Shown: positions 15,334-35,602 of the stretch, piece after piece
Numbering within the stretch: the first letter of the stretch is position 1
Layout: every line of letters starts with the position of its first letter
Source: a virus
Direction: 5' to 3' (one strand)
Virus record (IMG/VR): IMGVR_UViG_3300042563_000635
Coordinates: 34,898 to 98,897 of that record
Length of the DNA stretch: 64,000 nt
Translations under genes and position numbers: made by a program
The notes under the pieces: generated by a model
Seen by the model: only the letters and a program-made list of their open reading frames with translations
What the model was told of the DNA's origin: nothing
Database searches by the model: none

Positions 15334-15954
15334 TTAAATAGTTACCAAGTTAGTTAGTGCTTGAATTCTAACCGTATAATCTATCTGAATTTGTCTATTC
15401 AAAGACTTTTGTACGGGGTGAAAAATAACATGAGTTAAAAGTCTAGTTATAACATTCCCGTCGTTATCTGTGCCATAATTGGCCAATAAGCCAAGTTCAT
15501 CAAAAACGTACTCCCCGTCAGTTTGAGTACTATTGTCAAATGCGTTTTGTCCTGCAGGTTCACCATAATCTAGCAAACACTGAACCAAAATATCAGTATA
15601 CACCTTACCAGTAGTATGTGATACTGTCATTTTATTACGTGTAGGATCCAAGTTAAACACACTAGTGTCGTCAACAATTTTAGTATAAGTTTGGTTATAT
15701 AATGCTGCATTTTGACCAGTAGTATTAGGAGGTAAATAGGTGATAACTCCGGTTTCATCAACGCTTGCCCCACCGTTACCAAAAGCCATTTCGTAGATTT
15801 CTCCGTACCCGCGGCTGCTTAATGTGTCAGCAATTGCTTCCGACATATTTTCGTAGTTGATGGCATTCTTCTTGTCCACAAAAACTTCCCCGTTATTGGG
15901 GTCGTAGACCTTTAGAAAACCTTCAATTTTATATGATAAAGTAATTACTGACAT
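15334..15954 (-). CDS. Putative virion structural protein
   Basis: A 206-residue protein without a recognised enzyme motif. The N-terminus YKIEGFLKVYDPNNGEVFVDKKNAINYENM looks like a conserved beta-strand segment of a phage structural protein; the tail includes RQIQIDYTVRIQ. The 50-residue gene just upstream ends in a closely similar stretch (HLKIFDPNTKQVLVQKR), so the pair may have arisen by duplication of an N-terminal domain. The two genes overlap by one base (TGATG), indicating coupled translation. Its place between the giant tail gene and fibre-like genes suggests a tail or fibre-connector role. Confidence 0.65.
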   Translation of the reverse strand: MSVITLSYKIEGFLKVYDPNNGEVFVDKKNAINYENMSEAIADTLSSRGYGEIYEMAFGNGGASVDETGVITYLPPNTTGQNAALYNQTYTKIVDDTSVFNLDPTRNKMTVSHTTGKVYTDILVQCLLDYGEPAGQNAFDNSTQTDGEYVFDELGLLANYGTDNDGNVITRLLTHVIFHPVQKSLNRQIQIDYTVRIQALTNLVTI

Positions 15955-16120: not shown

Positions 16121-19100
16121 TCAATTTATATCACCGCGTAAGAATATTGCGGATGGAGTTGTAGATATCTGTAACGGGTCGCCCTCAACTGTATTGTACA
16201 CGTTAGAGTTCCAAACTTCCTGATAATCCTGAATGGACATTTGATTATTAGACAACAATCCGTAAACTTCGGAGTACAACGGTATAAAGAACTGAGCACC
16301 GGTGCCATTTGTTCCTCGTTGTAGGCCAGAAATAGTATTATTTGCTAAATCAACTGAGCTAAACTTAATTTGCTCGCCGTTAACATATAACAAGTTTCCT
16401 TCTAAGATAGTTATAGTTACCTGATTTCCAACAGAAATATATGCGCCGGCTGCTATTTTTAATACAGGAGACAAGTTTACTATTACAATTTCATAGTTTT
16501 CACTAGCGATAGTTTGTCCTATGGTATTGTTTACAACACTGACATTAGATATAATTCTCTTGTCGGCTTCTAGACCTATGTAGAAATACCCATCAACTGC
16601 TGCAGGAACTATCTCATTTTGAGTAACTAAATCTGTTAATCTAGTTACATCATCAACATACATCACTGTGTCGGTATTGCTCAACGGTTCAACTAACCAA
16701 GTTCTAGTCTGTGTGTTTGCACGATACGCAACATTGGTTCCAATTTGATTGACGTTGATTAAGAATACTTCTTCGTTTGGAGTAGCACTTGGCATCATGC
16801 TTGTAATGGTCACGCTATCCAAAGTTGTAATTGATGCTAATATACTAACTTCATTATTTGCATTTAAACGCAATCTTGTTGAAGGTACACGGTATCCATT
16901 GACTGTTACCCATAATCTATCAACATTGTCTTGTTCCCATTGAGTTACATACATTGATCCGGATACAGTAGATAATATAACTTCACTACCGTCTCTAGTC
17001 GCAGTAATAGAAAACTCAGTAACACTGACTATTGATTTAACATAATACGTAGTGTTTGCCGACACCCCTCCAAATACAGCTCCGGTGAACACGATAGGAG
17101 TTCCAATGATTAACGTTTCCGTACTAGCTACGGTTAAGTAGTTACCCAATACTGGGTCATTAGTAGTATCCGTGACCTCAAGATTTTGTATAATATAAGC
17201 AGTTGATTCCCAAATATAACCACCACTTACATATGATGATATAGCAGTAACAGGGTTGTTAATCGCAGACAATCCTGGATTGTAAGGTGTGTCGATGTAT
17301 AAGTCTACTTGAGTAGAATTTATAACATGTACATAATAGGTATTGTTATTTAATTGAACAGATCCTAATGTACCGTCGATTCTTACTACATCACCGGACG
17401 TTAAGCCGTGAGCAATTCCAGTTGTAACTCGTACTGCTGATTGTCCTCCAACGTATGCAATTACTAATCCAGTACCAGTAGATAGGTTAATTATCGTTCC
17501 ACTTTCATTTTGAATAGTGAACGTAGTTGAAGAAAGAACAGCACGAACATAATATACAGTACCATCAATCGCAATGTCGCCAAAACTAGTTGCTCCTTTA
17601 AACTGAATAGTTTGTCCTGGAACAAATCCGGTAGTTGAAACGCAAGTTATTACCTCTGTTGTACCATTTGAAGCTGTACAATTAGTGATAGCGGCAACCG
17701 GTGTTATGGTATTGTTAACGTCAACGATGTTAGCAACTGTTACACCAGTTATGTTATACTGAGTATTTAAATACTGACGGTCAGTATTATTAAATGTCGT
17801 TACGGCAATAGTACTACCTAACGTAGGCGCAGATACAAATGTGATTTCGTTATTGTTACTATCTATAGTATACGCAGTAGTGTTTAATAGTCGTAATCCA
17901 TTTACTTCTACAATTGCATTATCAGGATTATTATCACCAACAAAATTATCTAATGAGAACGGACCTGTTGCTCCGGTAGCACTTATTACTTGAACTTCAG
18001 GTATAGTGTAACCATACTGAGTAGGAGTAGTTTCTCCAAATAAAGTATAGCTAATGTAATCAACATTGTCATCATAATCTCCTGTTGAGAAGATAATTGA
18101 CGCACTAATACCGTTATCTGCAATACCAAAAGCATAGTCGTTAGATATAAACTCTGCACCCCCGGTGGCGTTTGTTAATGCTATAACTGGGCCGCCGAGT
18201 GTCGCAGATACTGTAAATTCGTTAGGATCAACGATAGATTTGATGTAGTAAGTTGTTTGTGGCAACAATACTCCACCAAACATAGTGTCACTAAACACTA
18301 TTCTTTCCCCTATTACCATACCACTAGTAGTGTTTGTTGTTATTGCATTGTTACTAGCTTTTGTTCTAGTAATTGTACTAGTTGTTCCTATTAATAATTT
18401 ACTACCGTTGTGATAGATAATAGGGCTAGTCCACACTGCTCCGTATCCAACTCTAATAACAACATTCATAGAACCAGTACCATCAGTCAACGCTAATGTT
18501 GATCCTGCAGTACCAGTACTAACATTTATTGTAGTTGAGATTGTAATTCTATTGGTTACATAACTAATAGTTTTTACATAGTATGTAGTGTCTTCTGCAA
18601 TACCACCAAACACACTACCTTGAAAGGTTATTGGACTGTTTAATACAAAATCTTCTACGCTTGCACATAGTATTGAGTTATTTGTGCTATCAGTCATAGT
18701 AGCAATAACATCAACTGGTTGAGTATCTGGTCTTATGATACCTGAACCATCGTATATTTGTCCAGAATAATTACAATTTACGTAAATTTCATTCCATCCA
18801 GTTGAAGAATTAATTCTTATAGGATCAGATTTTGTACTAGACTTAACTAACTGATTTCCATTACCCACTTCATACACATCTACACGTAGGTTGTTTGCTA
18901 CGGGTGAGAAAGTAAGAGGAGTATTTAAGGTGATCGTATAATCAATCCAATTGATTGTATAATTTAATGTTTCATATATTGCAGTGCTTAGTCCTGTAGT
19001 TCCGTCAATAATGTAAACTGCAATTTGAGCAGGAGTCTGAACGTTGTACAAATTACCTATATCAAAACTATATAATGTCTGTGTTCCTGAAGTAGGAGTG

Positions 19101-22100
19101 TACTCTATGCTAACAACGTTATAACCAACGTGAGCATAAATTGTTTCATCCCAATTAGTGCCAGGGCGAGTCGCAACTGTCATCGTAATGTTATCAGTAA
19201 CGACACCAGGAACTAATTCTTCTGGTCCATAACCATATGTAAATTCTGCACCCTGTACATCATAGATCGTAGGTTGTATTGCAAATACTGATGAGCTAGT
19301 CCAAGTGACACCATTATCAGAACTAATTAAAATAGTGTTATTATCACCAACTGCTATCCATTCTCCGCTTGTAGAGTTATAGGTAATTCCATTTAAATTC
19401 TCTGAAGTTCCGGAACTATGCTGGGCCCAAGAATAACCGTCAATCGATACTTTAATGAGCCCCGCATCACCGACAGCAACATATCTATTGTTTGCATAAT
19501 ACACATCAACCAATGATGTTGTTCTTGGTGCAAACATATATGTTGTCTCACTAGGATCAAACACGTTCAATGTTACTGGTAATCCACCAGGAGTAGCACT
19601 TACTTGTAACTGAGTGAGCGATATTATATTAACTACATAATATGTTGTTCCTGCGACAAAGACGTTGAATGACTCTGAGAATTTAACTTGATCTCCAACT
19701 ATAAATCCAGCGGTGCTAGTTACGTTCAATTCGTTAGATGAGTCGTTTGCACTAATCACTGTAACTTCATTTACACCTAACCAATTTGCACCGTTATCAG
19801 ATATGTATATTACTCCATCTTCACCCACAGCTACAATTTTTGAACTGTTGTGTGTAACACCGTAGAAGCCCTTAGAACTTAATGCAGGAATTTGATTCCA
19901 GTTAATTCCGTCAGTGCTTGTTAAAACAATGTTTACATCAATCGTAATTCCTACGCCAGTTGAATAATCTAACTGTTGACCTTTACCAACAGCGATAAAT
20001 CCAATGTAGTTTGGAACGCTAACTCCATTAACACCGTATAGGATATTAGTCAATGTAGGGTTACTGAATGTAAATCGTTGTCTCCAAATATAGGTATCAT
20101 CGCTAGAAACAATTCCTTCTCCGACAGCGACCCATAAGTTATCTCTGTATCCAACTGAATTTAAATTCAATGAAGATATGCTCAGTGCAGTAAAATCATA
20201 GGTTGTAGTATCATACGGAACAGAACCATACGGGGTATAGTAGCCATTAGTAGTCCATGTTATACCATCTATACTTCTAAACACAGGGGTTGCTGGATTG
20301 TTGGTAGTCATTATATAATAACCACCTGCATAAATCATATCAGTAGTGTTTATCGGACTATTTGCTAACTTTTGAATTGACCATTCGTCTCCGGTTAGAC
20401 TTGATATTACACTAGAATAATCAGTCATGTCGGCTGCTGCCAAATAACGCACACCATCCCAAACAACAGCATGTATATCTACATCAGCAGGATAGAACGC
20501 TTGATCTTGTAATATGGTGTCGATTGGATACTGATCATCGGGCGCAAACGCATTACCCAAATAAGTACTGTTTGGATATATTACTCCTTCAAACAATTGA
20601 GACAAATCTTTGCCTGGCATGTTATCAGTTGGTTGATAGTAACCAAATACACGATCCATTGCATTTAATCTTCTGTCGCCACTAGTTAATAATTCCCACT
20701 TACCGAATACAAACTCAGTGTCGTTGTTAGATATCACACAAACATATACTCGGTTGTTATATTTGACAATACTTTGATTGAAGATGAATGGCTCTGGTAA
20801 CAATGCAAACGAACCTGATTTAGCCATTGTAAAGTTAACACCAATTGTGGTCACTATATTTACAATAGTAGTAACGTCTCCGGGTACTGTGCTAATTCTA
20901 AACTGTGTACTAGATGGAATATCATAGATATAATATGTTTCACCTTCAGTAATATTTGTTATGTTTGTCTGAACAGATCCAGTAAACACAACTGCATCAT
21001 TAACATCAAACACACTAGTGTCACCAATTGTCAATCTATCATTGGCTGAACTTACAGCAGTAACTGTAGCTTCAGTAATACCAACGTAGGGCAATGACAG
21101 ACCACTTACAGGAACTGTCATCAATTGATTCTGATATAATTCGAACTCAGTAGATGAAATTACTTTTAAGTAATATTGGTTTGAATCACCGGCTACCGTT
21201 CCGTTACAGATTACGCTTGTAATTTCACCATTAGTTCCAATAGAGTTAACAGTTACTGTTAAGTCGTTCAACGGTGATGTGCCACCTATTTCATTTCCCG
21301 GAATAACAATTGTGTTATCTACTGCATATCCTGTACCCAAATTGCTAATTAATACTCTATATCCACCTAAAATATAACTTACATCAAATTCAGCTACTGT
21401 TAGCGGCGTTTGATCTACTGTAGTTTCAGTAGTGATGACCATGGTAGAAGTTGATAGTGAACCAGAAGAAGTGTTTATTAACGCACCGCTAGCGGTTAAC
21501 GAAACATTGAACGTAGTGCTATTAGCATTACGGACATAATATCTCGTTCCCAAAGACATGCCTGAAGGTACAGTACCGTTTCTAAAGATTACTGTAGTTC
21601 CATTTTCAGGAGCATTAGCGACTGTAATAACCGCAGGGTTTGCGGCTGTGATTGATGCACTTTGTTGGGAGTCACCTGGATACTCAGCAGGGTCGCCGAG
21701 GTTGCCTGCGACTTTGATATACGGTAATCCAGTACCGGTCATCAATCCGCTAGCAGTAGATAATGTTAGTTCTAAACCACCGGGCGTGTTAGTGATTGTG
21801 AATCTAGTGTCACTTACTATTTCTTTAATCCAATATTCAACATCAATTTCTGCACCACCAATGCCTGATCCAGAGAATGTGATTGGCATATCAGCAAATA
21901 ACATCTCAGTAGTATCACAAGTCAATTCATTAGTTGAAGATGATGTGTTTGTCACTTCAATTTCAATAGTGCCTTTGTCTACTACATAATAAGTTGTTCC
22001 AGGAACAAGCACATTTGTAAAGAATAGGTCTTCTGAGATTTCTATAGGCATATTAACATATATGTTAGTCAACCCTCTTGCAACAGTGTCACCTGCGTTA

Positions 22101-25100
22101 TAGTTAGTCATTACAATTGAGTTAACATCAACCGGTAATCCGTCAATTCCTGAAGTGCGCTCACCTATCAATGCCGCAACACCTCTAGTAATTAGATTTC
22201 CATTTGTTCCATCTAACCCAGGATATTGACCAGAAGTTTCGTATAGTGTGAACAACTGACCATTAACTTGTCCTGGACTTACCGGTAAGCTAACGTTAAC
22301 TACCATACTGTTTCCTGTAGCGGTAGTCAATGTAACAGTATTTTTCTGACTAGTTACCAACGCTGAAGTGTTGCTTGCCGGCGAAACATCAGACAACGGT
22401 AACACAGCACCGTTAACAGTAGCTGATATTTGGAATGCACTAGGGCTAACAATAGAAGAAACATAGTAAGTTGTTCCTGAAACTAGGCCACCAAATGTAG
22501 CACTTTCAACTCCTGCAAGTATCATGGTGTTAAAAATTATAGGCTCATTGACAATAAGTTTATTAGTATCACCGTCAATCAGTACAGTGTCATTAGACGC
22601 AACAGTTGCAGTTACATTAAACGTCTGCGGATTCTGTGTTTCAGACATAGTAAATGTTTGATTGTCTACTACGGTAGTTACATAATAAACTTCATTTTCT
22701 ATGATTCCACCAAACACTCCGTTTTGTATCTTAGTTGGGTCAGTACCTGTAAAGAAGATAGGCAAATCAATGTAGAAGCCAGCGGTGCCACCAGTACCTG
22801 TAACATTTAACGGTACTGTTATGTTGTTAGTAACTGCTAAGGTTGATGTAACATCAAGTATTCCAGGATAATTTACAGTAATAACTGCAATATCGGTAAC
22901 TTCTCCTACAAAACATTCTAGTCCAGCCGGGCCTACTGTCCAATTAGTCAATGGTAATAAAGGGCTACCTGTACTGTTTATTGACAAAGTAAAATCAGTT
23001 TGATTTACAATACTATTGACATAGTAAACTTGTTCATTAACAATACCACTAGATCCAATGTCACCGATAAATGTTACAGGCATTCCTATATAGAATCCAT
23101 TAGTACCACCAGATGCGTTTGGATTACCAGAACCATCGTCTTGTAGAGTTAATCTAACAACATCATTTGACGCATATGTGCTATGCACATTACGAATAAA
23201 AGAACTATACGTTACTGTTCTCTCGTTTCTCAAATCAGTTATTTCAAATGCTACACCTTGAGCACTAGCCAATATATCAGCTATTGGTGGCTGAGTACTT
23301 TGTAAAGTAATTGATGAGCTTGCTATTGATTCGCTATTAGAATATGTGCCGGCGAAGAAAGCACCATAGTATCTACCGGTTACCCATTCAATGACTTTTG
23401 ATGTATACGCAGTTCTATCAAACCTTAATACAATATCATTTTGCCTTATAGGTAATGAACTAGAAATTGCACTTGCCTTTGCACCTAGATTAACTGTGTG
23501 ATTTGCACCTGTTCCTGTACTGAATAACGGGAGTCTATCGTGATCATTAATACAATCAGCATAGTTATCATAAAATCCCAAAACAACTGAAGGTACAGTT
23601 TCTAATACATTGATATAATACCATTGATCGTTTTCTAATCCACCAATTGGTGTACTGTTAGTTCCTACTTTGTATTGAATTAGGTCTCCTGTTTGCAATA
23701 ACGGAGCATAAATTTGAATAGTGCTAGAGAATGTGTTTACATCCGTACTTGAGAATGGAACAACAATAGATGAGTCAATGATTATTTTTGGTAGTACTGT
23801 ATATCCTTGGCCAGGATCAACAACGTCCACACGCAATACACTATCTAAATTCATTACTGCATTCAACACCGCAGGTTTTGTTGGTGCCGGATACAACACT
23901 GGATCAATATATGCAGTAACCTTAGGAGGTTCGATATATCCTCTGCCGCCATCAAGTAATAGCACAGCAGGAAGATCCATAAATATGTTTTCACCAGGAA
24001 TATGTTCTGTAATTGGGGTTCCGTTAACTCCGCGAGTTAACCCAGCCAATACATTTAACGCACGATCCACTGATGAGTATCCAATTTGTTCGGTTCCCAT
24101 TTTTAAAATACCATTGATAGGTAAACCTTGAGCATTATCAACTGCAAAAGATTTAGTATTCAATGAAATATATGACGCTAATGTTGTTATGTGTGCATCA
24201 AGTTCACCTGTTATAGACAACCCATGGTTTTCAAACCACTGTGAGTATTCTTGTTCTTCCCATATAGGATTGTCAGGAGTAAATTGATTTACTCCGTTAC
24301 CGCTATTATAAACTAATTGAGGTGTTATAAACTGTGCTTGAGATTTGTCATATTTTGCAGGCAAATCAAAATCAGTAATATTTCCACTATACACTTCGCT
24401 ACCAGTATACTTAAATAAGAATTCTTTGATAACCACATGATATGGTTTTATTTCATTCATGTACCCTGACAAGAAATCTTGATTATCCGTTTGGAATACT
24501 TCGATTGGTCGTAGTTCACGTATAGTATGTGCAACATCAATGAATGATGTTTTGTTTAGCCATGGTAAGTAATTTTGACTTTCTGTGGTTTCACTTTGAA
24601 TGTATTCAAACAACAAAATCAAACTACGGTTTCTGTATACCAATAGGTCATCCGTATATATTTGTTCGTTCAATGCACGAACAATTTTGCGTGTTTCTTC
24701 ACTAGGATAAACATCATAAGTATCAGTGTCAAAGAAGTTATCACCGTAACCTAAACGAACTGATTCATAATCCCATAATGATGATTTAAAGCGTATTGTG
24801 CCGTTTTCTAAACCAATACGTCTCCAATTACCGGTTAACTCGAATATGTAAGTTTCTGCTTTACCACTCATGTTAGTAGATACAGTTACTATAGTGCCAG
24901 GGATGACTGACAGTGTAGATAAATCTGCATAGATAGGAACCTGTAATGCAGATTTTATGTTGTCATCATAACCTGTTGCCCACCAATTAATAAATTCCCA
25001 ATAGTCTCTAGTATCATAGAACTCACCTGATGATGTCAAGAATGAAGATTGTCTGATTTCAGTTATGGGGAACTGAGTTAATATAGAATTTGCATACTGT

Positions 25101-28100
25101 AGATAATTTTTTAATGCAGTAAAACGATCTAGGAAAAAACTCTGTCGAGGTCTTGCTAGTATACCCGTTTGAACTGCTTTTGGCAAATATGGATTAGGAA
25201 CAATTGCACCTGTTTCATCAACACCGCATAAGCTGTCTAATAAACGATCATACAAGCTATCAGGTATTTCATTAGTTGTATTTGGAACTCCAGGTAAGAA
25301 ATCACTAGGGAATCCTGAACGAATTAAATTAAATTGTTCATGCGATACGTCATCGTTGTTACCTGTAGCAAATCCAATGTGTAATACACTATCATTGGCA
25401 TTGATATAATCACCAGAGTTATACAATCCGTAAACACTAGGAAGAATAGGACTAAAATAACTTATACCAGATGCTTTTGGATTTTCAATATAAGATGCAA
25501 TGATAGAATCTGCTAATGTCTTACCATTGTTTGAGAATATAGTATTTGTATTTCTAGCCCAGAAATAATAGACAGGAGCAAGTGCGCCGGCTGCGTCTAT
25601 TACATATTGAATAGAGAATGAAGTTACATCAACAGGTATTCCTGGCCCTCTGTATTCGCCAGGTAGTACATTACTTGCTACCCAACTACAAACTGATACG
25701 TCACTACCAGGAAACAATGTACCCCAATATTGACTGTTATAAGAAACGTCATTGTTTTGATGATAGTTTACAAAACGAAGATTCTTAGTGTTTAACCAAA
25801 CTTTACCAACATGATCTGCTCCCCATACTAGGCCGCCTGTAACGGTATCGCCGTTGTTGTAATTTGCAGGATCAACGTTAGAAATAATGTCAATATTTTC
25901 TCTTGCTGCTCCTAATATTTTTCCTTGCAATGGATCAATGTAATCCATATTAATCAATGTCTCATTCGATTCTGCGCTGAACAACTGAATATTAAAAATC
26001 TTGTTAATGTCTACGATTGGAGCAGAGTATCTATACAGAGCCCAATCTTTTACACCAGTACTGTTGTTATAAACTGTTGCAGAGCCGGCGTACTCGGATC
26101 CGGTTGTAGAACCTACATCACCGGGAGTACCTACAATTACTCCGTAATTATTAAAGTCTAACGCAGTGCCATACAGTGGTTGATTACTTGTAGTTACATC
26201 AGTTGCTTGGTCGTAAGTATTAAACGGTGTATATGCTAAGTTTGGTGAGTTAACACTTTGCGCATATACGAATTTACCTAGATTTAATAAACTTTCATTG
26301 TACTGTGAGATGTAGTCGAACATGTACACTGCACCAAAATTTGGTGATTCGTCTATCCAAGATGTAGTATTGTTATCAAACAACGTATCATTGTCTTGAT
26401 TTTCGTCATCAACAAAGTCAAAGGTAGTAGCAGAGTATCTAGTACCAACTGGGGCACTAGCAACAAAACTACCATACTCATTAAACTTAACTACTGTACC
26501 AAATTGTGTTGGGCCGATATTATGTGGACATACAATTTCTTGAGTCATGTCAAATACAGTAATTCCCAATTCAGATAATGTAGTAGTATCAGTTATGCTT
26601 AAACATAATTTTTCGTTGATAGGAGCTAGACTATTATCCACTAATAATATAACTAATTTTCCGTTAATTGCTGTTGCGGCAACATTAGTTATGTTAGATG
26701 AATTTATAGCATTCGCTACTACGGTTGCGTTACCTACAGGTATGTAGGTTAAGAATCCATTTAATAATATTTTTCTAGTTGTAGTGACATTACAGTCAGT
26801 TGTACCCACATACATACCATAAGCGGCGCCTGGATCTGTGTAACGATATACTACACCCTCTGAAGTTTGTGTACTTAATTGGAACGGTGCTCCAATTAAT
26901 ATCTCGCTTGCAGTATTATTGGTTGTTACACTTGTACCAAACTGGGCGCCGGTTTGAGGAGCTTCTGCAGGCGCAATGTTTTGTAACAACGTTATCTCAT
27001 GACCATTTACGTCAATTATATCACCTGCATTCAATGAAGCAGTATACACTAACGTATCACTGATTACTGCATAATTACTGTCTTGTATCAATGTTCCGTT
27101 GTTAGATACAAACAATGTATCGTCTTGTAAGTATGCTTTAGCATTTGTCATGCCGGCAACTGTTGCAAGAGGAACAACAGTTGCACTTTCTCTTGATTCC
27201 TTGATAGTTATATCATACCCCGAAACCGTAGCGATGTAGTATACCTTTGATGTAGTTATTTCAGTTCCAGTAAAACCAGAACCAATAAACATGATAGGCT
27301 TATCAACGTCAGTAGCCGGATTAGGCAATGTTGATAATGTTATCCTATCTGTTGTAGCATTAGTATCAGTGACTGTGAATTCAGTAGAAGAAGGTGTCCA
27401 AGCTAGTTGCAATGTTTGCGTGTTTGGAGATACAGTGTTGTATTGAATTTCTAGGTTTTGAGACAGACGCTGAAAGACATAGGTGCGACCCCATTTGTCA
27501 ACAGACCCTTCATCTTTGTAGGGAGTTCCTATAATTATTTTATTGCTATCATATTCTGTAGCGATTGAATATCCAAATTTATCACCGGAGTTAGTCAATC
27601 CCAATGCATCACCATCTATTGTAGTAACTGCATTGAATGTAATCTTTGTGGCTACTCCGGTGCCTGTGCCTACCCCTGTTGCAATAAATACCGTGCCTAC
27701 ATCGTTAGATGTTGCTCCAATACTAGTAAAGTCAGTAGTACCGATTGAATTGATTATATATGTTTCTGTCGATTCAAAGTTCCCCGCTGTAGTAACAATA
27801 TTTGAACGTTGATACACATGTACCGTGTTGTTATCAATATCAGATATATAAATCCAATTTTGATTTTTTGATATTGATATTGCTGTTCCCCAAAGATCAT
27901 CGAGCGCGGCAGCATAAGGTATAGTTTGTACTAATACCAAATCATCTGATGTTGTTGTACTTTGCAACTGATACAATTTAACACTACTAGCCGCACCTGT
28001 TGTTTCCGCAATTGCATATAGATCACCCGCGTAACTAATAGTACTACCAAATGTAGGGTTACCAACTAAAGTTTGTACAAGTTCATATGCATTATTCAAA

Positions 28101-31100
28101 TCGTTGAAGGTGTAACGATACACTTGACCCAAATCTGCATCGCTGATCACATAACCTAATTGGCTACTTATCGCAACTGCACTTCCCAATGATTGAGAAG
28201 ATGCTTTAGTTACTTGATTTTCTAATGTATAGTTTATATTTTTTCTGTATACGCCCCATGATCCAGAAGCATCAGTATCTACCCATACTGTATTCTTTCT
28301 AAATTCTGCTTCTGTTAATGGTAAGTTTGCAATTTCTGCAGGAGTTGCAACACGTTGAGAAGTAAACTTCATAGCAACACCTTGACCATTAATGGTCTTG
28401 ATGCTAGTGTCTAAAACTTTGTTTACCAACACTCTGTTTTGATCAATCACAATCGTTGCTAGATAATAGCCATCAATCGCAGGATCAAAATTCACAATAG
28501 CAAATGGTTGATATTGTGTTAGATTATGAGGTTTGTTAAATGTTACAGTAATTGTTTCATTTAAGTTATTTTTTACAGTAGTTACTTGACCCATTGACAC
28601 AGGTGTGTAAACTTGCCATTGCTCTAAGTAGTTGGCTAACCATACGTAATCACGTACAAAAAAGTCTTGAATAGGTACGATAGAACCATTTTTATCTACT
28701 GCTACTCCCAATTGAGAATAGAAGAAAGCAGACATTTTAATGTCATTGTAATTTACATATCCTGCATCAGGATACAATGTACTGATAGTTTCTGTAGTTG
28801 TAGGCAAAACATTAACGTTTGTAATGGTTCTACCGTAGTTGAACAATGAGTATAACGGGACTTCTTGTTGTACACCTTGATTGTAAATTCCCTGAGTCAA
28901 CCCTACTATTGCAGGATTTCCTGTCATTGATTTTTCGTTAACTCTAAATTCTACAAAATTGTTGTTTAGTACACCGCCAAACTCTCCGGCCTTTATAGCC
29001 CAATTTTCAAAAATTTCATAATCAATGCCGCCTTGAGGCAAAGTGGCGCCTTTGAATGCACTAGCTGCGTTCAATGTACCTTTGTTCTTAATCATGTTCT
29101 TGTATACGTTGACTTGCGTAATGTCTGTCAAGTCTGCAAGAGCCATATAATCACGCGGACGGTATCCAATCAGACTGAAGCTTAGTAAGTCAGCATCTTT
29201 TTCCAAGTTAGCTTGATCGATATCGTAGTACAACGAACTTTCATAACTACGTGTGCTTGAGTTAGGTAACAATCCTTTTTGTACTTCATCATAATCAGTG
29301 CGTTTCCAATCAGCTTCTTTAAAGAGTTCACTGGCTTGGATAACCTTAGTAGCTACCCAATATTTGTTCTTATACTTAACGATTTCACCCTTAGTATATT
29401 TTGCAGTTCGATTCCATTCTTTGATATTATCTTGATTGTAAATGAATCCACTAGCATTGACTGTACCATTCCAATCAGCACTCTTTGTACCTCGTAATGC
29501 AATACGGTTTTGACGTAATCCTGTAGTTAAATTATAGATAATGTCACCGAACAATGTTACGTTATCAAACACAATACCATGTTCAAAATTACTTAGATTG
29601 AATTGACCATATGATAACACATCACCTGCATTTAACGCCGCTACACTGAATGCAGTACCTTGACGAACGACTGACATGTCATTCAATTGAATAGGATATA
29701 AATTCTGATTCAATATAAAGTTTGACTGTTGCAATGTTAATGGTTGTACGATATTACTATCTTTGTCAATCATTAATTTTTTAGCAGAAGGGTTTAATGT
29801 AACGATGCTGCCGGCTGACCACCCAGTCTGAGCCCAGTATAAGAACTCAGCAATCATTTGAGCCCAATTTATTTCGATTTCATTTTCCATGTCATCGAAC
29901 TTCATACCTAAACTAGTTAAGTATGCACCGTAGTCTGCTAAGAACTGCGCAACTTCCTGTGCTGTATAGAATGCAGTGTTATATGGTACTATTTGTTCTT
30001 TGTCAAAATGATCCGGAGTCACTCTTATTGACAAGTCTTCTACATCTATGGTTTCATACTTGCCGCCAAATTTTGGCTTTAATGTTTTAAAGTACGCATA
30101 TGTTTGTGAATTGCCATATACTGTGAATCCACCTGAAGATGCCGTTTGTATAATTACACCTGAATAAATGATTCTGTTAAACGGTTGGTTATCATACAAT
30201 AACACGCTGTAACTCTCATCAGGAATTAACAAACTAGCATTTGCACTATTGGGTGTACTCTTTTCAACAAAAAACTTTAATAAAGTTTTGTCGCTAAATC
30301 CCGCTAATCTGTATACCAAACGAACATCCATGTTGTTTAACATTTCAGTTATATTAGTAGTTGCATCAATTCCTATTTGTTTTTCATAATCAACAACCCA
30401 GTTAACATAGCTAGTTACAGGGGTGCCGGTGCCGTACACATCAATGTCACTCATTCTCAAGTGGCTACGATTGTTTACTAAGTATTGGTTAAATTCTGCA
30501 TTGTATTTGTAGTGGTCTATATCGACCCCTAAGTTAAAGAATTCTGCTGGCTTAGTTAGAGCCAATGTTCTCATTAAATCGAATGGGTAAGTGCTACTGC
30601 GTCTATAGCTAAACTCAACTGGTGCACCGTCTCCTACTTTCCAATCACGTTGGAATAATTTTTGATTGTAACTACCAACTACAGTGTCGATAGGAGGAAG
30701 CAAATTACCAGCACTGTCAACCGGAATTATTTCTAACAATCCGTCACGTACGGCTTCAGGAATTACAACTGGGTTACCGTTGTTCCAATCTATGCCTTCT
30801 GCTAAATCACTCCATAAAACTAAGTTATCACTTGTGTATGGAGCAGGACCATATCTATTTGTCCACCATGTAGGCATTTCAGTGAAGCCCAACATTTCCC
30901 ACGGCGTAGTGTTTGGTGTCGTAGTATCATAGAAATACTGATATATACCTCTCCAATAGCCTTGAGTAATTACAGCCTTGTTAATTGCATTACCGCTTTG
31001 GAAATAGTTGTATGTATAATTGTTACCAGCATTGTAGAACTGAGTTTTATAATTTAAACGATTTTGACCAACCCAATTTAAGAATCCATTACTGTATATC

Positions 31101-34100
31101 TCTAACCACTCAGGATACGAATAATCGATATCTCTAAAGAATCCGGGCAAAATTTCATATTCCTTAATAGGAATTACTGAGCTAATTTTTAAGTTGTTAT
31201 AAACACGTAATTCAAATTCTAATGAAACTTGGTCTCTAAAATCAGATAACAGTTCGGTAGTAGTATCGTATTCTCCATACAATTTAGTATATGATCCATC
31301 ATGCCCCCTGATGAAATATGTAGGATTAGTGTAATTGCTATCTAAAATTACTTCAGGAAGATATGCTGGATACAATCCCAATTTAGTAGGAGTATTAGGA
31401 ACATAAGAACCGTATGTTTGATTGTATTCTTTAATTGTTATTACATCACCAGGTTGTAAGTCTAAACTTACAGTTAATGACGGAGCAGTTGCACTTATAG
31501 TATAGTCTTGACCTTTAATCAACTGTTGAGTTGTTGTAATACCTGATTGAGTGCGAATCAAATATACCAATACACCATAGTAATTTGCAGTAGTGTAATC
31601 GTAAACTCTAGACAATGGGTATATACTTACATCTAAGCTATTTGCAAATGAGTATGTATTGGACACATATGCTGCCTTACTAGGTAACATATCAGACCAA
31701 AAGAATGATTGATTATCAGTTTTTGACGAGGTTATTTGATCTAACGCATCATCTAACATTGTGGCAGGATCATATCGTTGAACATAATCACTATTATTCA
31801 CAGTATATGCTAATAAATTTTTAAACTTAACATATTCTTTACTATTGAACATCAGTGCATTGAATAAATTATGTTCCTGCTTACGCAAGAATGCACCAGG
31901 CAATACTAAGCTTGCACTGTTTTGTATAATCTTATCTCCCCACGGAACCATGTTACCCAAATCTCTATAGTTATTTGGGCCAAAAACTTTACCTGTTGAA
32001 TTAGGGTTATTGTAGAAACTGCTTTGATATTGCCCACGAATATCACCTATGTTGGCAACTACAATATCAGCATTCAATGGATTGTTATTTAAATTATTCG
32101 GTATAGAATAGTAGGCAGTATTGCTTACTTGGTCACTCAACAACAATATTTGAATTACTGTTTCAAGTATAGGATTTTCATTGAGCACTACTGTTGTAGT
32201 ATCAGGTCCTACAGTCACAGTGTATTCCCCATGAGATACAATGGTATTGTTAATGTATACTTCAATTGTAGGCCAGTTAGTACTATCAGCACTAGACTTT
32301 GCAATATCGCATACATATGAAGTTGTAGGATTTAATGGATCATAGTTAAATTCAAAAATTTGATATTGAACACTAGGTGATACAGCAGTCTGCCATCCTA
32401 GTTGACGCTCATATTCTATTCTGTTATTATACTGATACACATAACCAGTATTTATTTTTTGCGTAATAGGATTAGTTCCACTTACATAATCGAAGGTGTC
32501 TGCGTTTAAAGAAACATCAAAACTGATATCGCCAACGTTATCTATCGCACTATACTTAATAGGAAATCCCAATACAGTGTCATCTATTCCGGCACCTATA
32601 CCATATGCAAATAACTTGCAACCGATAAATGATGTACCTAAGTAAATAGTCGGGTCACCAAAACTTATACCATTACTATCATAAATGTCAAATAACGGAG
32701 GCTGATTTAGTGTAGTTTTTTGTTGACCATCTATCCATTCTAAACCATCATACCAAAATTCTTTACCTTGATTAAAATATCCACGCAATGCAACTGTTTG
32801 TTGATCGGGATGAACATTACCGTTATCTACTTCAGTTAATGTTATAACTGGAATAGATGACTCGGCTATAATAGAAAATCTAGCTACATAAATTTTATTT
32901 TTTACGCTAGTGTCAGTATCCTGAGTGAAAATAACTCTTGCACCTTCAAACAATGAATAATTGTCATTAGTTGTATCAGTACTAACAAAAGATGATTCGG
33001 TTGTTGTTGGAATATAACCCGAAGACCCTTCATCCCAACCTACTTCAATGGTTAATGTAGTACTACCAGTGATAGAAAGTATTTGAGTATTTCTAGGCAA
33101 TTGGTTAGTAGAATCAGTGATATATTGACCAACAGTCATTGTACCAGTTACATCATCTGCGTCAATGGTTAAAGTAGTACTCTGCGGTGTCCAAGCAAAT
33201 GTTCCGCCTGAAGATATATTACTGAAATCTACAACATCGCCGCCTTTAATACTAGATATTTTAAACTCAGTACCAGACACAATCTCTGCTACAAAATATG
33301 TAGAACCATTCACTATGCCCAAGCTTGGAGTAACACCGTCAAAAATAATTAGGTCATCAACTCTGAATCCAGTCGTACCAGTTACAGTGGTGATGATGTT
33401 TGTGGCATCGGCTGCACCGCTAAAGGCACGGATTGGTGTATAATCAGTGCTTGTGATAATACCAGTGTATGCAGTATACACTTCAACATCAGGATAATAA
33501 TTCTCTTGACCTGCAACAAGCGAAAAGGCGTCAGTTGTTCTAGTATCTATAAAATCTACAGGATCTTTACCTTCTGAACCAGAATTAAACAATTTTATGT
33601 TAGGATAAAACTCTATAATTGGTCTTTTTGCTTTATATGCTGAGGTTGCATATAACGTAACTAGATTAGGATTATTATTATATGTCGCAGTTGCATTGAT
33701 AACATCAATATGGAACCAACGGTTACTACGTGACCAGGCATTTTTGTCAATACTATTGCGTGAGATAGTAATATAGTCCGGTGTGACTGGAACGTATGAA
33801 TTACCTTCCCATGCCGCAGTATCCCAACCTAATGTATCCCAGGCTACATATGTACTTGCAGTAAAATTTTCCGGTGCTATGAAATTTTCTACAGGTAGTA
33901 ATTCAATTGCAGCACCCACACCTTCTACATAATATTCACCAAACAAGTAACTTTTAGGAATAACATCCCCTTGAAAACTAACTTTAAGACCATTGGTAAA
34001 AGCTACTCCATTAGTAGAAGTAAATTGAGCGTTGCCTAATATATCATCTTCTACATTTAACGTGTTAGAAATATTACTTTCAATTAAACGAATGATACCT

Positions 34101-35602
34101 ACTTTATTTGGGGAAGTACCGTCCTGGTAGTACAGTGTATCTAGAGGAGCGCTTATGTAGGGAATTAATAAAATTATACCTGACGTATTTCTATAGAAAT
34201 TTCTAGTACCCCACTCAGTACCAAAAGTAGCAGTAATTTTTTCATCAACTGGTATTTCTGATGATTGAACTAAACGTATTACTGGATCAGAAGGATCACC
34301 TAATAATTGAATAGAGTAAAAATATTCATTTACGTTTGTATAGTAACCTTGCTCGTATTGACCTTGATTAATGACCCCGGTCATTGATCCAGATGCAGTA
34401 GACAATGGTAATACTGAACCAGCCGGTGTAGATGATATAGTAAATTCTGTAGAATTTAATATAGACTGCACGTAATAAATTGTATTTGGTAATGTGGTTG
34501 AATATGATGCTATGCCACCAAAAGGATTGCCATTAAAAATTATAGCATTTCCTACAGTTAGATTGGCTGTACTATTACAAGTAATAGCATCTGTTACACT
34601 ATTAGTATTAGTAATGCTGATAGTTTTTAATTCAGTTAGATCATTATTTTCATCATATGGTGTATAGTCAAAAAAGTTTGATACGTATCCAACTTCGTTT
34701 GGAATTCCAGTGTTGTAAAACATAACTCTCAACCCATCGAGTGAGGTTATACCATCAATACCATTTACTAAGTCACTTAGTCTAGCACCATTAATTGAGG
34801 CAAACGGTAAAGTAGAAACTAAGCTTACTGTGTTGTTTCCAGGGAAGTTATATTCATCCTGTGCATCATTGGGAGGTACAGTAAACGTAACTAAGCCTTG
34901 AGTAGCACCGTTGTTGTCAACTCCTAAAATTTCACGTGTTTGTACATTAGGTTGAGTAGGACTGTATCCTGTAACTCCTGGTTCACCTTGAATCCAAAAT
35001 TGAGTTGATTGATTTACTGCAAAGGTGTAAGTTCCGCCTCGTAATAATGTCAGTGTGGGATTAGTGCTACCTAGGCCATCCGCAGACGTTAATGGAACAA
35101 TATTGTACCCGTTGGGTAAATCATAAACTACGTAGTCGTTAGCATAAAAAACAGTTTCACTAGAAACGATAACTCGTTCAGGGCCTTCTGGTATCCAGTA
35201 GTACTGATTAAAGTTAATAATTTTATCTAGGTTAGTAAAAGAATCCCAAGAATAGAATTGGCTATTAAACAATCTGTCATTATTGTTTGTTATACCACCT
35301 TCTAGTTTTAATGCATCAATTATACCTGGATAACTAATAAAGTCTTTAGCGACAGATTCGTTTGTTTTTGTAAACACAACACCCGGGTCTAATTGATAAT
35401 CTGTGCGGGTCTTAGTAGGTTCAGTTACATAGTAATCTTTGGCATTTATGCCATAACCAAACTTTGTACCAATGTACCCTTGTATCTTTTTTGTTTCAGG
35501 TTGAGCTACGATTTGATCTAAAGTCGCGGCTAAAAACTGTGAATTGGTTGTTGTCTGAAAAATTTCAGGTAGAAAATTTAGTGTTCTTATTCTTGATGCC
35601 AT
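16121..35602 (-). CDS. Giant virion structural protein, 6,493 residues
   Basis: One unbroken frame of 19.5 kb, giving a protein of roughly 700 kDa from average residue mass. The N-terminus (LNFLPEIFQTTTNSQFLAAT, then LFNSQFYSWDSFTNLD) resembles large tail/baseplate proteins encoded after gene 6 in T4-like aquatic phages. Residues about 2470-3180 hold FG-GAP-type propeller repeats (GYSIATEYDSNKIIIGTPY, SEILIGAPF). Residues about 5045-5440 hold a BNR/sialidase-like propeller (WVAVGEG, KIVAVGEDGVIYISDNG, YVAVGDAGLIKVS). About fifteen copies of a 75-90-residue module ending YYVxxI...FxIsxTxgG...LstasGsM are scattered through it. It lies 10 bases after gene 6, so a baseplate-attached fibre or wedge role, possibly in place of T4 gp7 or gp10, is inferred. 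Confidence 0.85.
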   Translation of the reverse strand: MASRIRTLNFLPEIFQTTTNSQFLAATLDQIVAQPETKKIQGYIGTKFGYGINAKDYYVTEPTKTRTDYQLDPGVVFTKTNESVAKDFISYPGIIDALKLEGGITNNNDRLFNSQFYSWDSFTNLDKIINFNQYYWIPEGPERVIVSSETVFYANDYVVYDLPNGYNIVPLTSADGLGSTNPTLTLLRGGTYTFAVNQSTQFWIQGEPGVTGYSPTQPNVQTREILGVDNNGATQGLVTFTVPPNDAQDEYNFPGNNTVSLVSTLPFASINGARLSDLVNGIDGITSLDGLRVMFYNTGIPNEVGYVSNFFDYTPYDENNDLTELKTISITNTNSVTDAITCNSTANLTVGNAIIFNGNPFGGIASYSTTLPNTIYYVQSILNSTEFTISSTPAGSVLPLSTASGSMTGVINQGQYEQGYYTNVNEYFYSIQLLGDPSDPVIRLVQSSEIPVDEKITATFGTEWGTRNFYRNTSGIILLIPYISAPLDTLYYQDGTSPNKVGIIRLIESNISNTLNVEDDILGNAQFTSTNGVAFTNGLKVSFQGDVIPKSYLFGEYYVEGVGAAIELLPVENFIAPENFTASTYVAWDTLGWDTAAWEGNSYVPVTPDYITISRNSIDKNAWSRSNRWFHIDVINATATYNNNPNLVTLYATSAYKAKRPIIEFYPNIKLFNSGSEGKDPVDFIDTRTTDAFSLVAGQENYYPDVEVYTAYTGIITSTDYTPIRAFSGAADATNIITTVTGTTGFRVDDLIIFDGVTPSLGIVNGSTYFVAEIVSGTEFKISSIKGGDVVDFSNISSGGTFAWTPQSTTLTIDADDVTGTMTVGQYITDSTNQLPRNTQILSITGSTTLTIEVGWDEGSSGYIPTTTESSFVSTDTTNDNYSLFEGARVIFTQDTDTSVKNKIYVARFSIIAESSIPVITLTEVDNGNVHPDQQTVALRGYFNQGKEFWYDGLEWIDGQQKTTLNQPPLFDIYDSNGISFGDPTIYLGTSFIGCKLFAYGIGAGIDDTVLGFPIKYSAIDNVGDISFDVSLNADTFDYVSGTNPITQKINTGYVYQYNNRIEYERQLGWQTAVSPSVQYQIFEFNYDPLNPTTSYVCDIAKSSADSTNWPTIEVYINNTIVSHGEYTVTVGPDTTTVVLNENPILETVIQILLLSDQVSNTAYYSIPNNLNNNPLNADIVVANIGDIRGQYQSSFYNNPNSTGKVFGPNNYRDLGNMVPWGDKIIQNSASLVLPGAFLRKQEHNLFNALMFNSKEYVKFKNLLAYTVNNSDYVQRYDPATMLDDALDQITSSKTDNQSFFWSDMLPSKAAYVSNTYSFANSLDVSIYPLSRVYDYTTANYYGVLVYLIRTQSGITTTQQLIKGQDYTISATAPSLTVSLDLQPGDVITIKEYNQTYGSYVPNTPTKLGLYPAYLPEVILDSNYTNPTYFIRGHDGSYTKLYGEYDTTTELLSDFRDQVSLEFELRVYNNLKISSVIPIKEYEILPGFFRDIDYSYPEWLEIYSNGFLNWVGQNRLNYKTQFYNAGNNYTYNYFQSGNAINKAVITQGYWRGIYQYFYDTTTPNTTPWEMLGFTEMPTWWTNRYGPAPYTSDNLVLWSDLAEGIDWNNGNPVVIPEAVRDGLLEIIPVDSAGNLLPPIDTVVGSYNQKLFQRDWKVGDGAPVEFSYRRSSTYPFDLMRTLALTKPAEFFNLGVDIDHYKYNAEFNQYLVNNRSHLRMSDIDVYGTGTPVTSYVNWVVDYEKQIGIDATTNITEMLNNMDVRLVYRLAGFSDKTLLKFFVEKSTPNSANASLLIPDESYSVLLYDNQPFNRIIYSGVIIQTASSGGFTVYGNSQTYAYFKTLKPKFGGKYETIDVEDLSIRVTPDHFDKEQIVPYNTAFYTAQEVAQFLADYGAYLTSLGMKFDDMENEIEINWAQMIAEFLYWAQTGWSAGSIVTLNPSAKKLMIDKDSNIVQPLTLQQSNFILNQNLYPIQLNDMSVVRQGTAFSVAALNAGDVLSYGQFNLSNFEHGIVFDNVTLFGDIIYNLTTGLRQNRIALRGTKSADWNGTVNASGFIYNQDNIKEWNRTAKYTKGEIVKYKNKYWVATKVIQASELFKEADWKRTDYDEVQKGLLPNSSTRSYESSLYYDIDQANLEKDADLLSFSLIGYRPRDYMALADLTDITQVNVYKNMIKNKGTLNAASAFKGATLPQGGIDYEIFENWAIKAGEFGGVLNNNFVEFRVNEKSMTGNPAIVGLTQGIYNQGVQQEVPLYSLFNYGRTITNVNVLPTTTETISTLYPDAGYVNYNDIKMSAFFYSQLGVAVDKNGSIVPIQDFFVRDYVWLANYLEQWQVYTPVSMGQVTTVKNNLNETITVTFNKPHNLTQYQPFAIVNFDPAIDGYYLATIVIDQNRVLVNKVLDTSIKTINGQGVAMKFTSQRVATPAEIANLPLTEAEFRKNTVWVDTDASGSWGVYRKNINYTLENQVTKASSQSLGSAVAISSQLGYVISDADLGQVYRYTFNDLNNAYELVQTLVGNPTFGSTISYAGDLYAIAETTGAASSVKLYQLQSTTTSDDLVLVQTIPYAAALDDLWGTAISISKNQNWIYISDIDNNTVHVYQRSNIVTTAGNFESTETYIINSIGTTDFTSIGATSNDVGTVFIATGVGTGTGVATKITFNAVTTIDGDALGLTNSGDKFGYSIATEYDSNKIIIGTPYKDEGSVDKWGRTYVFQRLSQNLEIQYNTVSPNTQTLQLAWTPSSTEFTVTDTNATTDRITLSTLPNPATDVDKPIMFIGSGFTGTEITTSKVYYIATVSGYDITIKESRESATVVPLATVAGMTNAKAYLQDDTLFVSNNGTLIQDSNYAVISDTLVYTASLNAGDIIDVNGHEITLLQNIAPAEAPQTGAQFGTSVTTNNTASEILIGAPFQLSTQTSEGVVYRYTDPGAAYGMYVGTTDCNVTTTRKILLNGFLTYIPVGNATVVANAINSSNITNVAATAINGKLVILLVDNSLAPINEKLCLSITDTTTLSELGITVFDMTQEIVCPHNIGPTQFGTVVKFNEYGSFVASAPVGTRYSATTFDFVDDENQDNDTLFDNNTTSWIDESPNFGAVYMFDYISQYNESLLNLGKFVYAQSVNSPNLAYTPFNTYDQATDVTTSNQPLYGTALDFNNYGVIVGTPGDVGSTTGSEYAGSATVYNNSTGVKDWALYRYSAPIVDINKIFNIQLFSAESNETLINMDYIDPLQGKILGAARENIDIISNVDPANYNNGDTVTGGLVWGADHVGKVWLNTKNLRFVNYHQNNDVSYNSQYWGTLFPGSDVSVCSWVASNVLPGEYRGPGIPVDVTSFSIQYVIDAAGALAPVYYFWARNTNTIFSNNGKTLADSIIASYIENPKASGISYFSPILPSVYGLYNSGDYINANDSVLHIGFATGNNDDVSHEQFNLIRSGFPSDFLPGVPNTTNEIPDSLYDRLLDSLCGVDETGAIVPNPYLPKAVQTGILARPRQSFFLDRFTALKNYLQYANSILTQFPITEIRQSSFLTSSGEFYDTRDYWEFINWWATGYDDNIKSALQVPIYADLSTLSVIPGTIVTVSTNMSGKAETYIFELTGNWRRIGLENGTIRFKSSLWDYESVRLGYGDNFFDTDTYDVYPSEETRKIVRALNEQIYTDDLLVYRNRSLILLFEYIQSETTESQNYLPWLNKTSFIDVAHTIRELRPIEVFQTDNQDFLSGYMNEIKPYHVVIKEFLFKYTGSEVYSGNITDFDLPAKYDKSQAQFITPQLVYNSGNGVNQFTPDNPIWEEQEYSQWFENHGLSITGELDAHITTLASYISLNTKSFAVDNAQGLPINGILKMGTEQIGYSSVDRALNVLAGLTRGVNGTPITEHIPGENIFMDLPAVLLLDGGRGYIEPPKVTAYIDPVLYPAPTKPAVLNAVMNLDSVLRVDVVDPGQGYTVLPKIIIDSSIVVPFSSTDVNTFSSTIQIYAPLLQTGDLIQYKVGTNSTPIGGLENDQWYYINVLETVPSVVLGFYDNYADCINDHDRLPLFSTGTGANHTVNLGAKASAISSSLPIRQNDIVLRFDRTAYTSKVIEWVTGRYYGAFFAGTYSNSESIASSSITLQSTQPPIADILASAQGVAFEITDLRNERTVTYSSFIRNVHSTYASNDVVRLTLQDDGSGNPNASGGTNGFYIGMPVTFIGDIGSSGIVNEQVYYVNSIVNQTDFTLSINSTGSPLLPLTNWTVGPAGLECFVGEVTDIAVITVNYPGILDVTSTLAVTNNITVPLNVTGTGGTAGFYIDLPIFFTGTDPTKIQNGVFGGIIENEVYYVTTVVDNQTFTMSETQNPQTFNVTATVASNDTVLIDGDTNKLIVNEPIIFNTMILAGVESATFGGLVSGTTYYVSSIVSPSAFQISATVNGAVLPLSDVSPASNTSALVTSQKNTVTLTTATGNSMVVNVSLPVSPGQVNGQLFTLYETSGQYPGLDGTNGNLITRGVAALIGERTSGIDGLPVDVNSIVMTNYNAGDTVARGLTNIYVNMPIEISEDLFFTNVLVPGTTYYVVDKGTIEIEVTNTSSSTNELTCDTTEMLFADMPITFSGSGIGGAEIDVEYWIKEIVSDTRFTITNTPGGLELTLSTASGLMTGTGLPYIKVAGNLGDPAEYPGDSQQSASITAANPAVITVANAPENGTTVIFRNGTVPSGMSLGTRYYVRNANSTTFNVSLTASGALINTSSGSLSTSTMVITTETTVDQTPLTVAEFDVSYILGGYRVLISNLGTGYAVDNTIVIPGNEIGGTSPLNDLTVTVNSIGTNGEITSVICNGTVAGDSNQYYLKVISSTEFELYQNQLMTVPVSGLSLPYVGITEATVTAVSSANDRLTIGDTSVFDVNDAVVFTGSVQTNITNITEGETYYIYDIPSSTQFRISTVPGDVTTIVNIVTTIGVNFTMAKSGSFALLPEPFIFNQSIVKYNNRVYVCVISNNDTEFVFGKWELLTSGDRRLNAMDRVFGYYQPTDNMPGKDLSQLFEGVIYPNSTYLGNAFAPDDQYPIDTILQDQAFYPADVDIHAVVWDGVRYLAAADMTDYSSVISSLTGDEWSIQKLANSPINTTDMIYAGGYYIMTTNNPATPVFRSIDGITWTTNGYYTPYGSVPYDTTTYDFTALSISSLNLNSVGYRDNLWVAVGEGIVSSDDTYIWRQRFTFSNPTLTNILYGVNGVSVPNYIGFIAVGKGQQLDYSTGVGITIDVNIVLTSTDGINWNQIPALSSKGFYGVTHNSSKIVAVGEDGVIYISDNGANWLGVNEVTVISANDSSNELNVTSTAGFIVGDQVKFSESFNVFVAGTTYYVVNIISLTQLQVSATPGGLPVTLNVFDPSETTYMFAPRTTSLVDVYYANNRYVAVGDAGLIKVSIDGYSWAQHSSGTSENLNGITYNSTSGEWIAVGDNNTILISSDNGVTWTSSSVFAIQPTIYDVQGAEFTYGYGPEELVPGVVTDNITMTVATRPGTNWDETIYAHVGYNVVSIEYTPTSGTQTLYSFDIGNLYNVQTPAQIAVYIIDGTTGLSTAIYETLNYTINWIDYTITLNTPLTFSPVANNLRVDVYEVGNGNQLVKSSTKSDPIRINSSTGWNEIYVNCNYSGQIYDGSGIIRPDTQPVDVIATMTDSTNNSILCASVEDFVLNSPITFQGSVFGGIAEDTTYYVKTISYVTNRITISTTINVSTGTAGSTLALTDGTGSMNVVIRVGYGAVWTSPIIYHNGSKLLIGTTSTITRTKASNNAITTNTTSGMVIGERIVFSDTMFGGVLLPQTTYYIKSIVDPNEFTVSATLGGPVIALTNATGGAEFISNDYAFGIADNGISASIIFSTGDYDDNVDYISYTLFGETTPTQYGYTIPEVQVISATGATGPFSLDNFVGDNNPDNAIVEVNGLRLLNTTAYTIDSNNNEITFVSAPTLGSTIAVTTFNNTDRQYLNTQYNITGVTVANIVDVNNTITPVAAITNCTASNGTTEVITCVSTTGFVPGQTIQFKGATSFGDIAIDGTVYYVRAVLSSTTFTIQNESGTIINLSTGTGLVIAYVGGQSAVRVTTGIAHGLTSGDVVRIDGTLGSVQLNNNTYYVHVINSTQVDLYIDTPYNPGLSAINNPVTAISSYVSGGYIWESTAYIIQNLEVTDTTNDPVLGNYLTVASTETLIIGTPIVFTGAVFGGVSANTTYYVKSIVSVTEFSITATRDGSEVILSTVSGSMYVTQWEQDNVDRLWVTVNGYRVPSTRLRLNANNEVSILASITTLDSVTITSMMPSATPNEEVFLINVNQIGTNVAYRANTQTRTWLVEPLSNTDTVMYVDDVTRLTDLVTQNEIVPAAVDGYFYIGLEADKRIISNVSVVNNTIGQTIASENYEIVIVNLSPVLKIAAGAYISVGNQVTITILEGNLLYVNGEQIKFSSVDLANNTISGLQRGTNGTGAQFFIPLYSEVYGLLSNNQMSIQDYQEVWNSNVYNTVEGDPLQISTTPSAIFLRGDIN

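Follow-up and report, generated by a model that had tools for sequence, protein, structure and literature searches.

The giant gene of this virus encodes a 6,493-residue protein that is probably a gp7-type baseplate wedge protein, inflated with outer-baseplate modules and placed in a 25-6-X gene slot. The gene covers positions 16121..35602 on the minus strand of the 64,000-nucleotide stretch analysed here (the window), as a single frame of 6,493 codons with an ATG start and one terminal stop, in DNA that contains no N. Its product has a mass of 709.6 kDa, a pI of 4.3 and 17 cysteines, which bears out the single gene of ~700 kDa described in the first-pass annotation. At the base composition of the window, a run of 6,493 codons without a stop has a probability of ~1e-190, and GC content is even along the gene at 35-38%. 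No tandem repeats were found within it at the DNA level. Comparison of the protein with itself (BLAST, E 1e-3) also detected no repeats because these are too diverged, and an iterated profile was required to find them. The source record is an IMG/VR fragment of 98,897 bp, on which a capsid gene of the gp23 type is found as well.

An IMG/VR scan with residues 1-2161 as the query identified at least 596 related stretches, of which the best 80 were kept. The family is common, yet its members bear no labels other than 'virion structural protein' and 'hypothetical'. Of 35 records chosen from these 80 and searched with the last 498 residues, 30 have a stop-free frame of 5,943-6,749 codons that contains a strong match to this C-terminus, while the remaining five (G008, G020, G023, G034 and G035) matched via repeat domains only. 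Recurrence of the long frame in 30 of 35 separate records answers the earlier worry about frame breaks. All 20 copies fetched from the 30 full-length records are intact, with 5,940-6,605 aa counted from the first Met, and share 53-86% identity with the window protein from end to end. The dN/dS values against the two closest fetched copies are 0.062 (L118) and 0.072 (L119) and remain below 0.11 in all eight segments, the C-terminal one included; they are approximate because synonymous sites are near saturation. The giant gene is therefore genuine and intact, and it is under purifying selection. The most variable regions include the repeats and probable propellers described below, where mean identity is 31-47% in many blocks of 100 residues. 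Contigs bearing the gene reach 348,701, 360,683 and 524,565 bp; the virus is therefore presumably a jumbo phage, and genomes larger than 500 kb probably occur in the clade. On the 524,565-bp contig (IMGVR_UViG_3300027749_002876), the relative of the giant gene is located at 313601-335592 (L213).

The giant gene is part of a minus-strand tail module. A small baseplate wedge subunit (45408..45722, phrog_7145) occupies the place annotated as Phage_gp53 in phage CBB (CBB_242). Next come a gp5-like hub/lysozyme protein of 1,230 aa (39491..43183, phrog_13211 and phrog_430), a gp25-like wedge protein of 149 aa (39033..39482, phrog_43 and phrog_975, with a GPW_gp25 match of 26.0 bits just below the cut-off of 27.2) and a gp6-like baseplate wedge protein of 1,121 aa (35613..38978, phrog_10646 at E 2e-259 and phrog_219 at E 2e-23), which also aligns with residues 25-109 of T4 gp6 in hhalign (prob 68, E 4.7e-5). 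The gp6-like gene lies upstream of the giant gene with a gap of 10 bases, the spacing noted in the first-pass annotation. On the other side, the next gene of the operon (15334..15954, 206 aa, phrog_11259) resembles PA5oct gp357 (201 aa) in size and place. It is followed by a gene for a 405-aa protein (14084-15301, minus strand) with a C-terminal Peptidase_G2 intramolecular-chaperone (autoproteolytic) domain (25.7 bits, cut-off 25). This product is probably a self-cleaving fibre or spike and points to a separate fibre as the main receptor binder; PA5oct has a separate fibre-like gene downstream as well, gp358, annotated as gp10-like. Downstream of the tail genes, positions 2683-9885 (minus strand) hold four genes that match radical-SAM PHROGs (phrog_14086/13987) and a nucleotide-sugar epimerase gene, possibly serving virion or glycan modification. 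Radical-SAM genes also occur after the giant gene in Phosso and Atu_ph07.

The giant protein belongs to PHROG 10938 'virion structural protein', which it matches over residues 1-2161 (E 1.1e-183) and 2162-4495 (E 1.2e-76); this family is listed under the category 'head and packaging', and the C-terminal third (residues 4495-6493) has no PHROG match. In tblastn searches of 50,697 phage records, the first third finds relatives in 58 records and the middle third in 56, all below 60% identity; the last third gives one short match only, in Caulobacter phage KSC. In viral_contigs, queries from SCTP-2 and PA5oct found no relatives and a RaK2 query returned RaK2 only. We compared nine neighbourhoods (RaK2, PA5oct, Atu_ph07, Phosso, SCTP-2, Vibrio 2.275.O, GAP32, XbC2 and CBB), in seven of which the giant gene directly follows an annotated baseplate-wedge gene. 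The preceding gene in Vibrio 2.275.O (1,287 aa) is in the gp6 place and is not named as a wedge gene. In Salicola phage SCTP-2 (L005:5609-14899), the gene before the giant is itself huge (3,096 aa), again in the gp6 place and without names. Relatives in isolates measure 3,326-4,555 aa. RaK2 ORF070, GAP32_230, CBB_236, PA5oct gp355, Atu_ph07 gp180 and Phosso XYS97451 share with the window protein both the post-gp6 slot and a collinear four-block core, but the PHROG 10938 isolate proteins show no match to the window insertions at 170-600 and 2340-3110 and to most of 3760-6493.

Proteins of this kind are thus already deposited and have partly been seen in virions. CBB_236 (3,340 aa), which is related to the window protein at E 2.9e-128, was detected in CBB virions by ESI-MS/MS with 21 unique peptides and 7.72% coverage according to the available part of the report (PMC5259590), and the PA5oct record carries an 'ESI-MS/MS' note on gp355. 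Neither mass-spectrometry report assigns the protein to the baseplate. For Atu_ph07, the accessible text states that three clusters, CDS 170-215 included, supply most virion proteins, without naming gp180 itself (PMC6102473). For MIJ3, a close PA5oct relative, excised bands gave four proteins only, and the giant is not among them in the portion of the report at hand (PMC6892783). The first-pass proposal of a tail protein is supported in that the giant is of virion type and is encoded in the tail module right after gp6, with same-slot relatives reported in virions by ESI-MS/MS. No description of a family member of ~6,500 residues was found in the limited literature searched. The present analysis adds three points: a whole clade has proteins of this size class, core and insertions can be told apart, and a cyanophage protein in the same slot matches gp7.

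The T4 gene after 6 is 7 and the slot 25-6-X thus corresponds to T4 gp7. The first-pass annotation had suggested that the giant may take the place of several T4 genes, gene 7 among them, which fits the position of the gene. T4 gp7 (1,032 aa) is one sixth of the size of the giant, and no match to it was detected by sequence or fold. The profile search against gp7 and gp10 proposed there gave nothing significant for the giant's family, with gp10 represented by a single T4 sequence. Nine segments and the core, compared by hhalign with T4 gp6-gp12, wac and gp18, yielded nothing above 15% probability, with the pairing of window gp6 and T4 gp6 as the positive control; the comparisons with gp10, gp11, gp12, wac and gp18 are weak because each used a single T4 sequence only. 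N-terminal profiles with RaK2, PA5oct, SCTP-2 or Vibrio phage sequences as masters found no significant match to cyanophage and T4 gp7. The profiles used for the gp7 comparison are shallow (Neff 2-3), and the best N-terminal pairing, with an S-PM2 protein, is in register at E 0.3. Searches of six T4-like genomes (P-SSM2, S-PM2, HTVC008M, Vi01, S-TIM5 and T4) with two core-block profiles gave no match, and a PA5oct control was positive. No gp7 or Afp12 chains are among the VIA matches listed for the models of residues 1-1200 and 3060-4100, in which the candidate segments have low pLDDT.

Outside the window family, a protein in this slot does match gp7. S-PM2p084, a 3,048-aa protein encoded after gp6 (L262:4073-13219; S-PM2 29072-38218), matches T4 gp7 702-790 with its N-terminus (hhalign prob 92.9, E 3.6e-7, alignment of 85 sequences). 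In addition, a ~70-residue module at giant residues 3803-3875 is also found in S-PM2p084 (prob 91, E 1e-6); it recurs elsewhere in both proteins and is distinct from the gp7 core. The gp7 match combined with the common module indicates that the long proteins of the post-gp6 slot include a gp7 relative. Other proteins in this slot have 896 (Melnitz-3), 1,165 (V09, annotated gp7), 1,915 (S-B68), 2,995 (Sf-FS3), 4,120 (S-SCSM1) and 4,225 aa (ACG-2014f, 'baseplate wedge initiator'). The long cyanophage proteins (S-PM2p084, ACG-2014f and S-SCSM1) resemble the window family in slot and inflation, but differ in the gp7 homology of the cyanophage N-terminus, which went undetected in the window family, and S-PM2 still has gp8. 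Pelagimyophages and cyanophages are said to lack gp7 and to have VrlC in its stead, as far as the available text goes (PMC7029224). In phage XM1, the excerpted report describes a T4 gp7 ortholog of only 242 aa that links two gp16 chains within the core bundle by a helix-turn-helix at its N-terminus and binds tail spikes with its flexible parts (PMC10457771). For the gp7-like part of AlgoCIS, which binds fibres, the accessible section speaks of an evolutionary hotspot (PMC8894135). The giant thus lies in the gp7 slot and probably works like gp7, to which it may or may not be related by descent.

Other T4 baseplate families were searched for in eight records of the group (the 98.9-kb fragment itself, four large relatives, PA5oct, RaK2 and Atu_ph07). 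The gp8 family is found in none of the eight and in the T4 control (1/1), which lends negative support to the earlier suggestion that the giant takes the place of gp8. The gp9/10 N-domain is likewise above cut-off in none of the eight, one of which is the 98.9-kb fragment, with sub-threshold matches in three. In view of these matches and of the fibre-like genes downstream, the replacement of gp9 and gp10 that was also suggested is no more than a possibility.

Aligning a profile of 21 near sequences to eight far relatives separates a conserved core from clade-specific insertions. Four collinear blocks are common to the far relatives (~1-170, 600-720, 880-2340 and 3110-3760, together ~2,400 residues), accompanied by a few weak, out-of-order matches to repeat-type modules (E 0.01 to 1e-4). 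The conserved N-terminal domain (residues 1-170, 35093..35602, minus strand) contains helices at 13-32 and is a putative contact to the wedge core bundle. Twelve of its positions (P12, Y43, G45, R66, Y69, Q70, Y91, G102, S118, N130, Y134 and W136) are invariant in all 14 near and far rows. The main core (residues 880-2340, 28583..32965, minus strand) is common to RaK2-, PA5oct- and Atu_ph07-type proteins, and the core ends with residues 3111-3760 (24323..26272, minus strand), which include a helix segment with the motif NE.KPYH. The model of residues 1-1200 has a mean pLDDT of 80.4 and a pTM of 0.54, falling to a pLDDT of 39-60 over most of 1-120; that of residues 3060-4100 has a mean pLDDT of 69.0 and a pTM of 0.37. 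Residues 3672-3745 (24368..24589, minus strand) have a pLDDT below 50 and are unfolded in this isolated model, but are conserved, including K3719-P3720, and represent a second putative partner interface. The N-terminus and residues 3672-3745 are kept in every aligned relative yet poorly modelled and may therefore fold only with partners. Foldseek searches of the PDB with both models gave no match at E <= 0.001, and a PDB sequence search gave nothing relevant. The best matches in BFVD belong to the same family: the structural protein of Atu_ph07 and three proteins from uncultured Caudovirales, of which two carry the label YHYH domain. A0A6J5L0K2 ('YHYH domain-containing protein', uncultured Caudovirales phage), which is present in BFVD as at least four pieces of ~1,165 residues and was compared by fold, matches residues 1-1200 over 1,203 columns at E 1.2e-63.

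The insertions contain FCCH-like barrels, probable propellers and a cupredoxin-like fold. Residues 151-530 (34013..35152, minus strand), an aligned block of the 21 near sequences, are predicted to adopt a cupredoxin-like fold (VIA Z 9.4, rmsd 2.4, 98 aligned, to rusticyanin) into which an FCCH-like barrel is inserted at 326-413; the cupredoxin-like domain is absent from the eight far relatives in the profile alignment. Type-1 copper sites use His, Cys, His and Met as ligands. Across all 21 near sequences, residues 179-262 lack both His and Cys and thereby the expected copper His/Cys, so that in the model the likeness to cupredoxins is one of fold only, without copper. An ~85-residue FCCH-like beta-barrel is repeated 18 times in the window protein and 12-18 times among the 21 near sequences, as detected with our own iterated profile, which matched none of the eight far relatives. 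Fold comparison covers the copies inside the two models: residues 721-806 match S. pombe Uba1 (ubiquitin E1) with a VIA Z of 8.9 (rmsd 2.3, 76 aligned) and a second copy gives a Z of 7.3 (rmsd 2.2, 74 aligned). Pfam PF16190 (E1_FCCH) scores 19.6 bits, below the cut-off of 29.5. Two regions are probable beta-propellers based on their similarity to the FG-GAP and YCF48/BNR families. The first is the clade-specific insertion at residues 2341-3110 (26273..28582, minus strand), in which FG-GAP_2 is found in 19 of 21 members (window copy 32.9 bits, cut-off 23). The second, at residues ~5040-5470 (19193..20485, minus strand), is interrupted by an FCCH-like repeat at 5276-5355 and matches PSII_BNR in 7 of 20 members (best 5.9e-7), the window copy scoring 18.4 bits, below the cut-off of 27; its alignment used 20 of the 21 near sequences, the omitted segment being too short. 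This probable propeller lies in the C-terminal expansion (residues 3761-6493, 16124..24322, minus strand), which otherwise consists mostly of FCCH-like repeats (14 of the 18 copies).

We propose that one copy of the giant per wedge would join two gp6 molecules via its N-terminal domain (1-170) and perhaps also via residues 3672-3745, modelled on (gp6)2-gp7 in T4 and (gp16)2-gp17 in XM1. The rest of the core would form the wedge body. The ~4,000 inserted residues could form an outer platform in charge of gp8-like and other peripheral functions; given their folds and greater variability, this platform could carry fibres and/or weak glycan-binding modules. The wedge would then relay fibre binding to gp25 and the sheath, as happens in other contractile tails, and six copies per virion would add ~4.3 MDa. 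Wedge location, copy number and signal transfer to gp25 and sheath are inferred by analogy with T4, XM1 and AlgoCIS. The wedge assignment is supported by PHROG 10938, the gp6-X synteny, the T4 6-7 slot, the virion peptides of relatives, the absence of gp8, the gp7 match of S-PM2p084 and the two conserved segments that fail to fold alone. It is weakened by the absence of a significant gp7 profile match and of gp7 or Afp12 chains among the fold matches listed, the 'head and packaging' category, the MIJ3 bands and mass spectrometry that does not place the protein in the baseplate.

Alternatively, the giant might be a peripheral adhesin or giant tail fibre merely encoded beside gp6, with the repeats as a stalk and the propellers binding the receptor. 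FCCH-like matches do include tailspike parts, those of phi92 endosialidase (Z 6.4) and endoNF (Z 5.6), the BNR and FG-GAP families are present, and the repeats and probable propellers are among the most variable regions. However, phages whose hosts range from Agrobacterium to Vibrio keep the core in collinear order, every segment including the C-terminal one is under purifying selection, and the separate downstream gene has the autoproteolytic chaperone domain typical of fibres. We consider such an adhesin unlikely.

A polyprotein that is processed into separate 7-, 8- and 10-like baseplate proteins once translated would explain the module mosaic and the missing gp8 gene, and head proteins are heavily processed in some other jumbo phages, as stated in the available part of one report (PMC13282480). 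Insertions located between core blocks (170-600 and 2340-3110) are nevertheless easier to reconcile with a single folded chain than with proteins in series, making cleavage of this kind quite improbable.

A tail-whisker, collar or head-associated structural protein seems very improbable. The PHROG category points towards the head and CBB has tail hairs of ~119 nm, but nearly every relative compared has the gene in a post-gp6-type position, and whiskers set CBB apart from an otherwise typical RaK2-like morphology in the accessible text (PMC5259590), yet RaK2, GAP32 and XbC2 carry the gene. Finally, an assembly artefact or fused reading frames, for which we found nothing in favour, can be rejected with near certainty, contradicted by the intact relatives and the purifying selection (dN/dS ~0.06).

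A more far-reaching form of the inflated-wedge assignment is that each wedge has one chain of ~6,500 residues in which the role of gp7 is combined with those of most of the outer baseplate (gp8-like and part of gp10-like), the six molecules (~4.3 MDa) building both the platform and a glycan-contact surface. We put this forward tentatively, as a possibility we regard as doubtful. If true, the gp7 slot would be the place where contractile tails grow larger. Proteins of this slot range from 242 aa in XM1 (available part of PMC10457771) through 896-4,225 in T4-like phages and cyanophages and 3,326-4,555 in the RaK2/PA5oct/Atu_ph07 group to 5,943-6,749 in the window clade. With a graded series from ~900 to 6,749 residues in one baseplate slot, and a conserved core separable from later insertions, one can test whether contractile tails become larger through inflation of a single wedge chain or through added genes. 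CBB, RaK2 and PA5oct are isolates in which this question can be answered.

Two further features of the window lie outside the tail module. An imperfect 15/24-bp tandem repeat is located at 60612-60695, within a gene without a Pfam match (60222-61112). On the plus strand, a TTG-started frame of 1,671 aa (53039-58054) has PHROG matches that are both tape-measure-like and endolysin-like.
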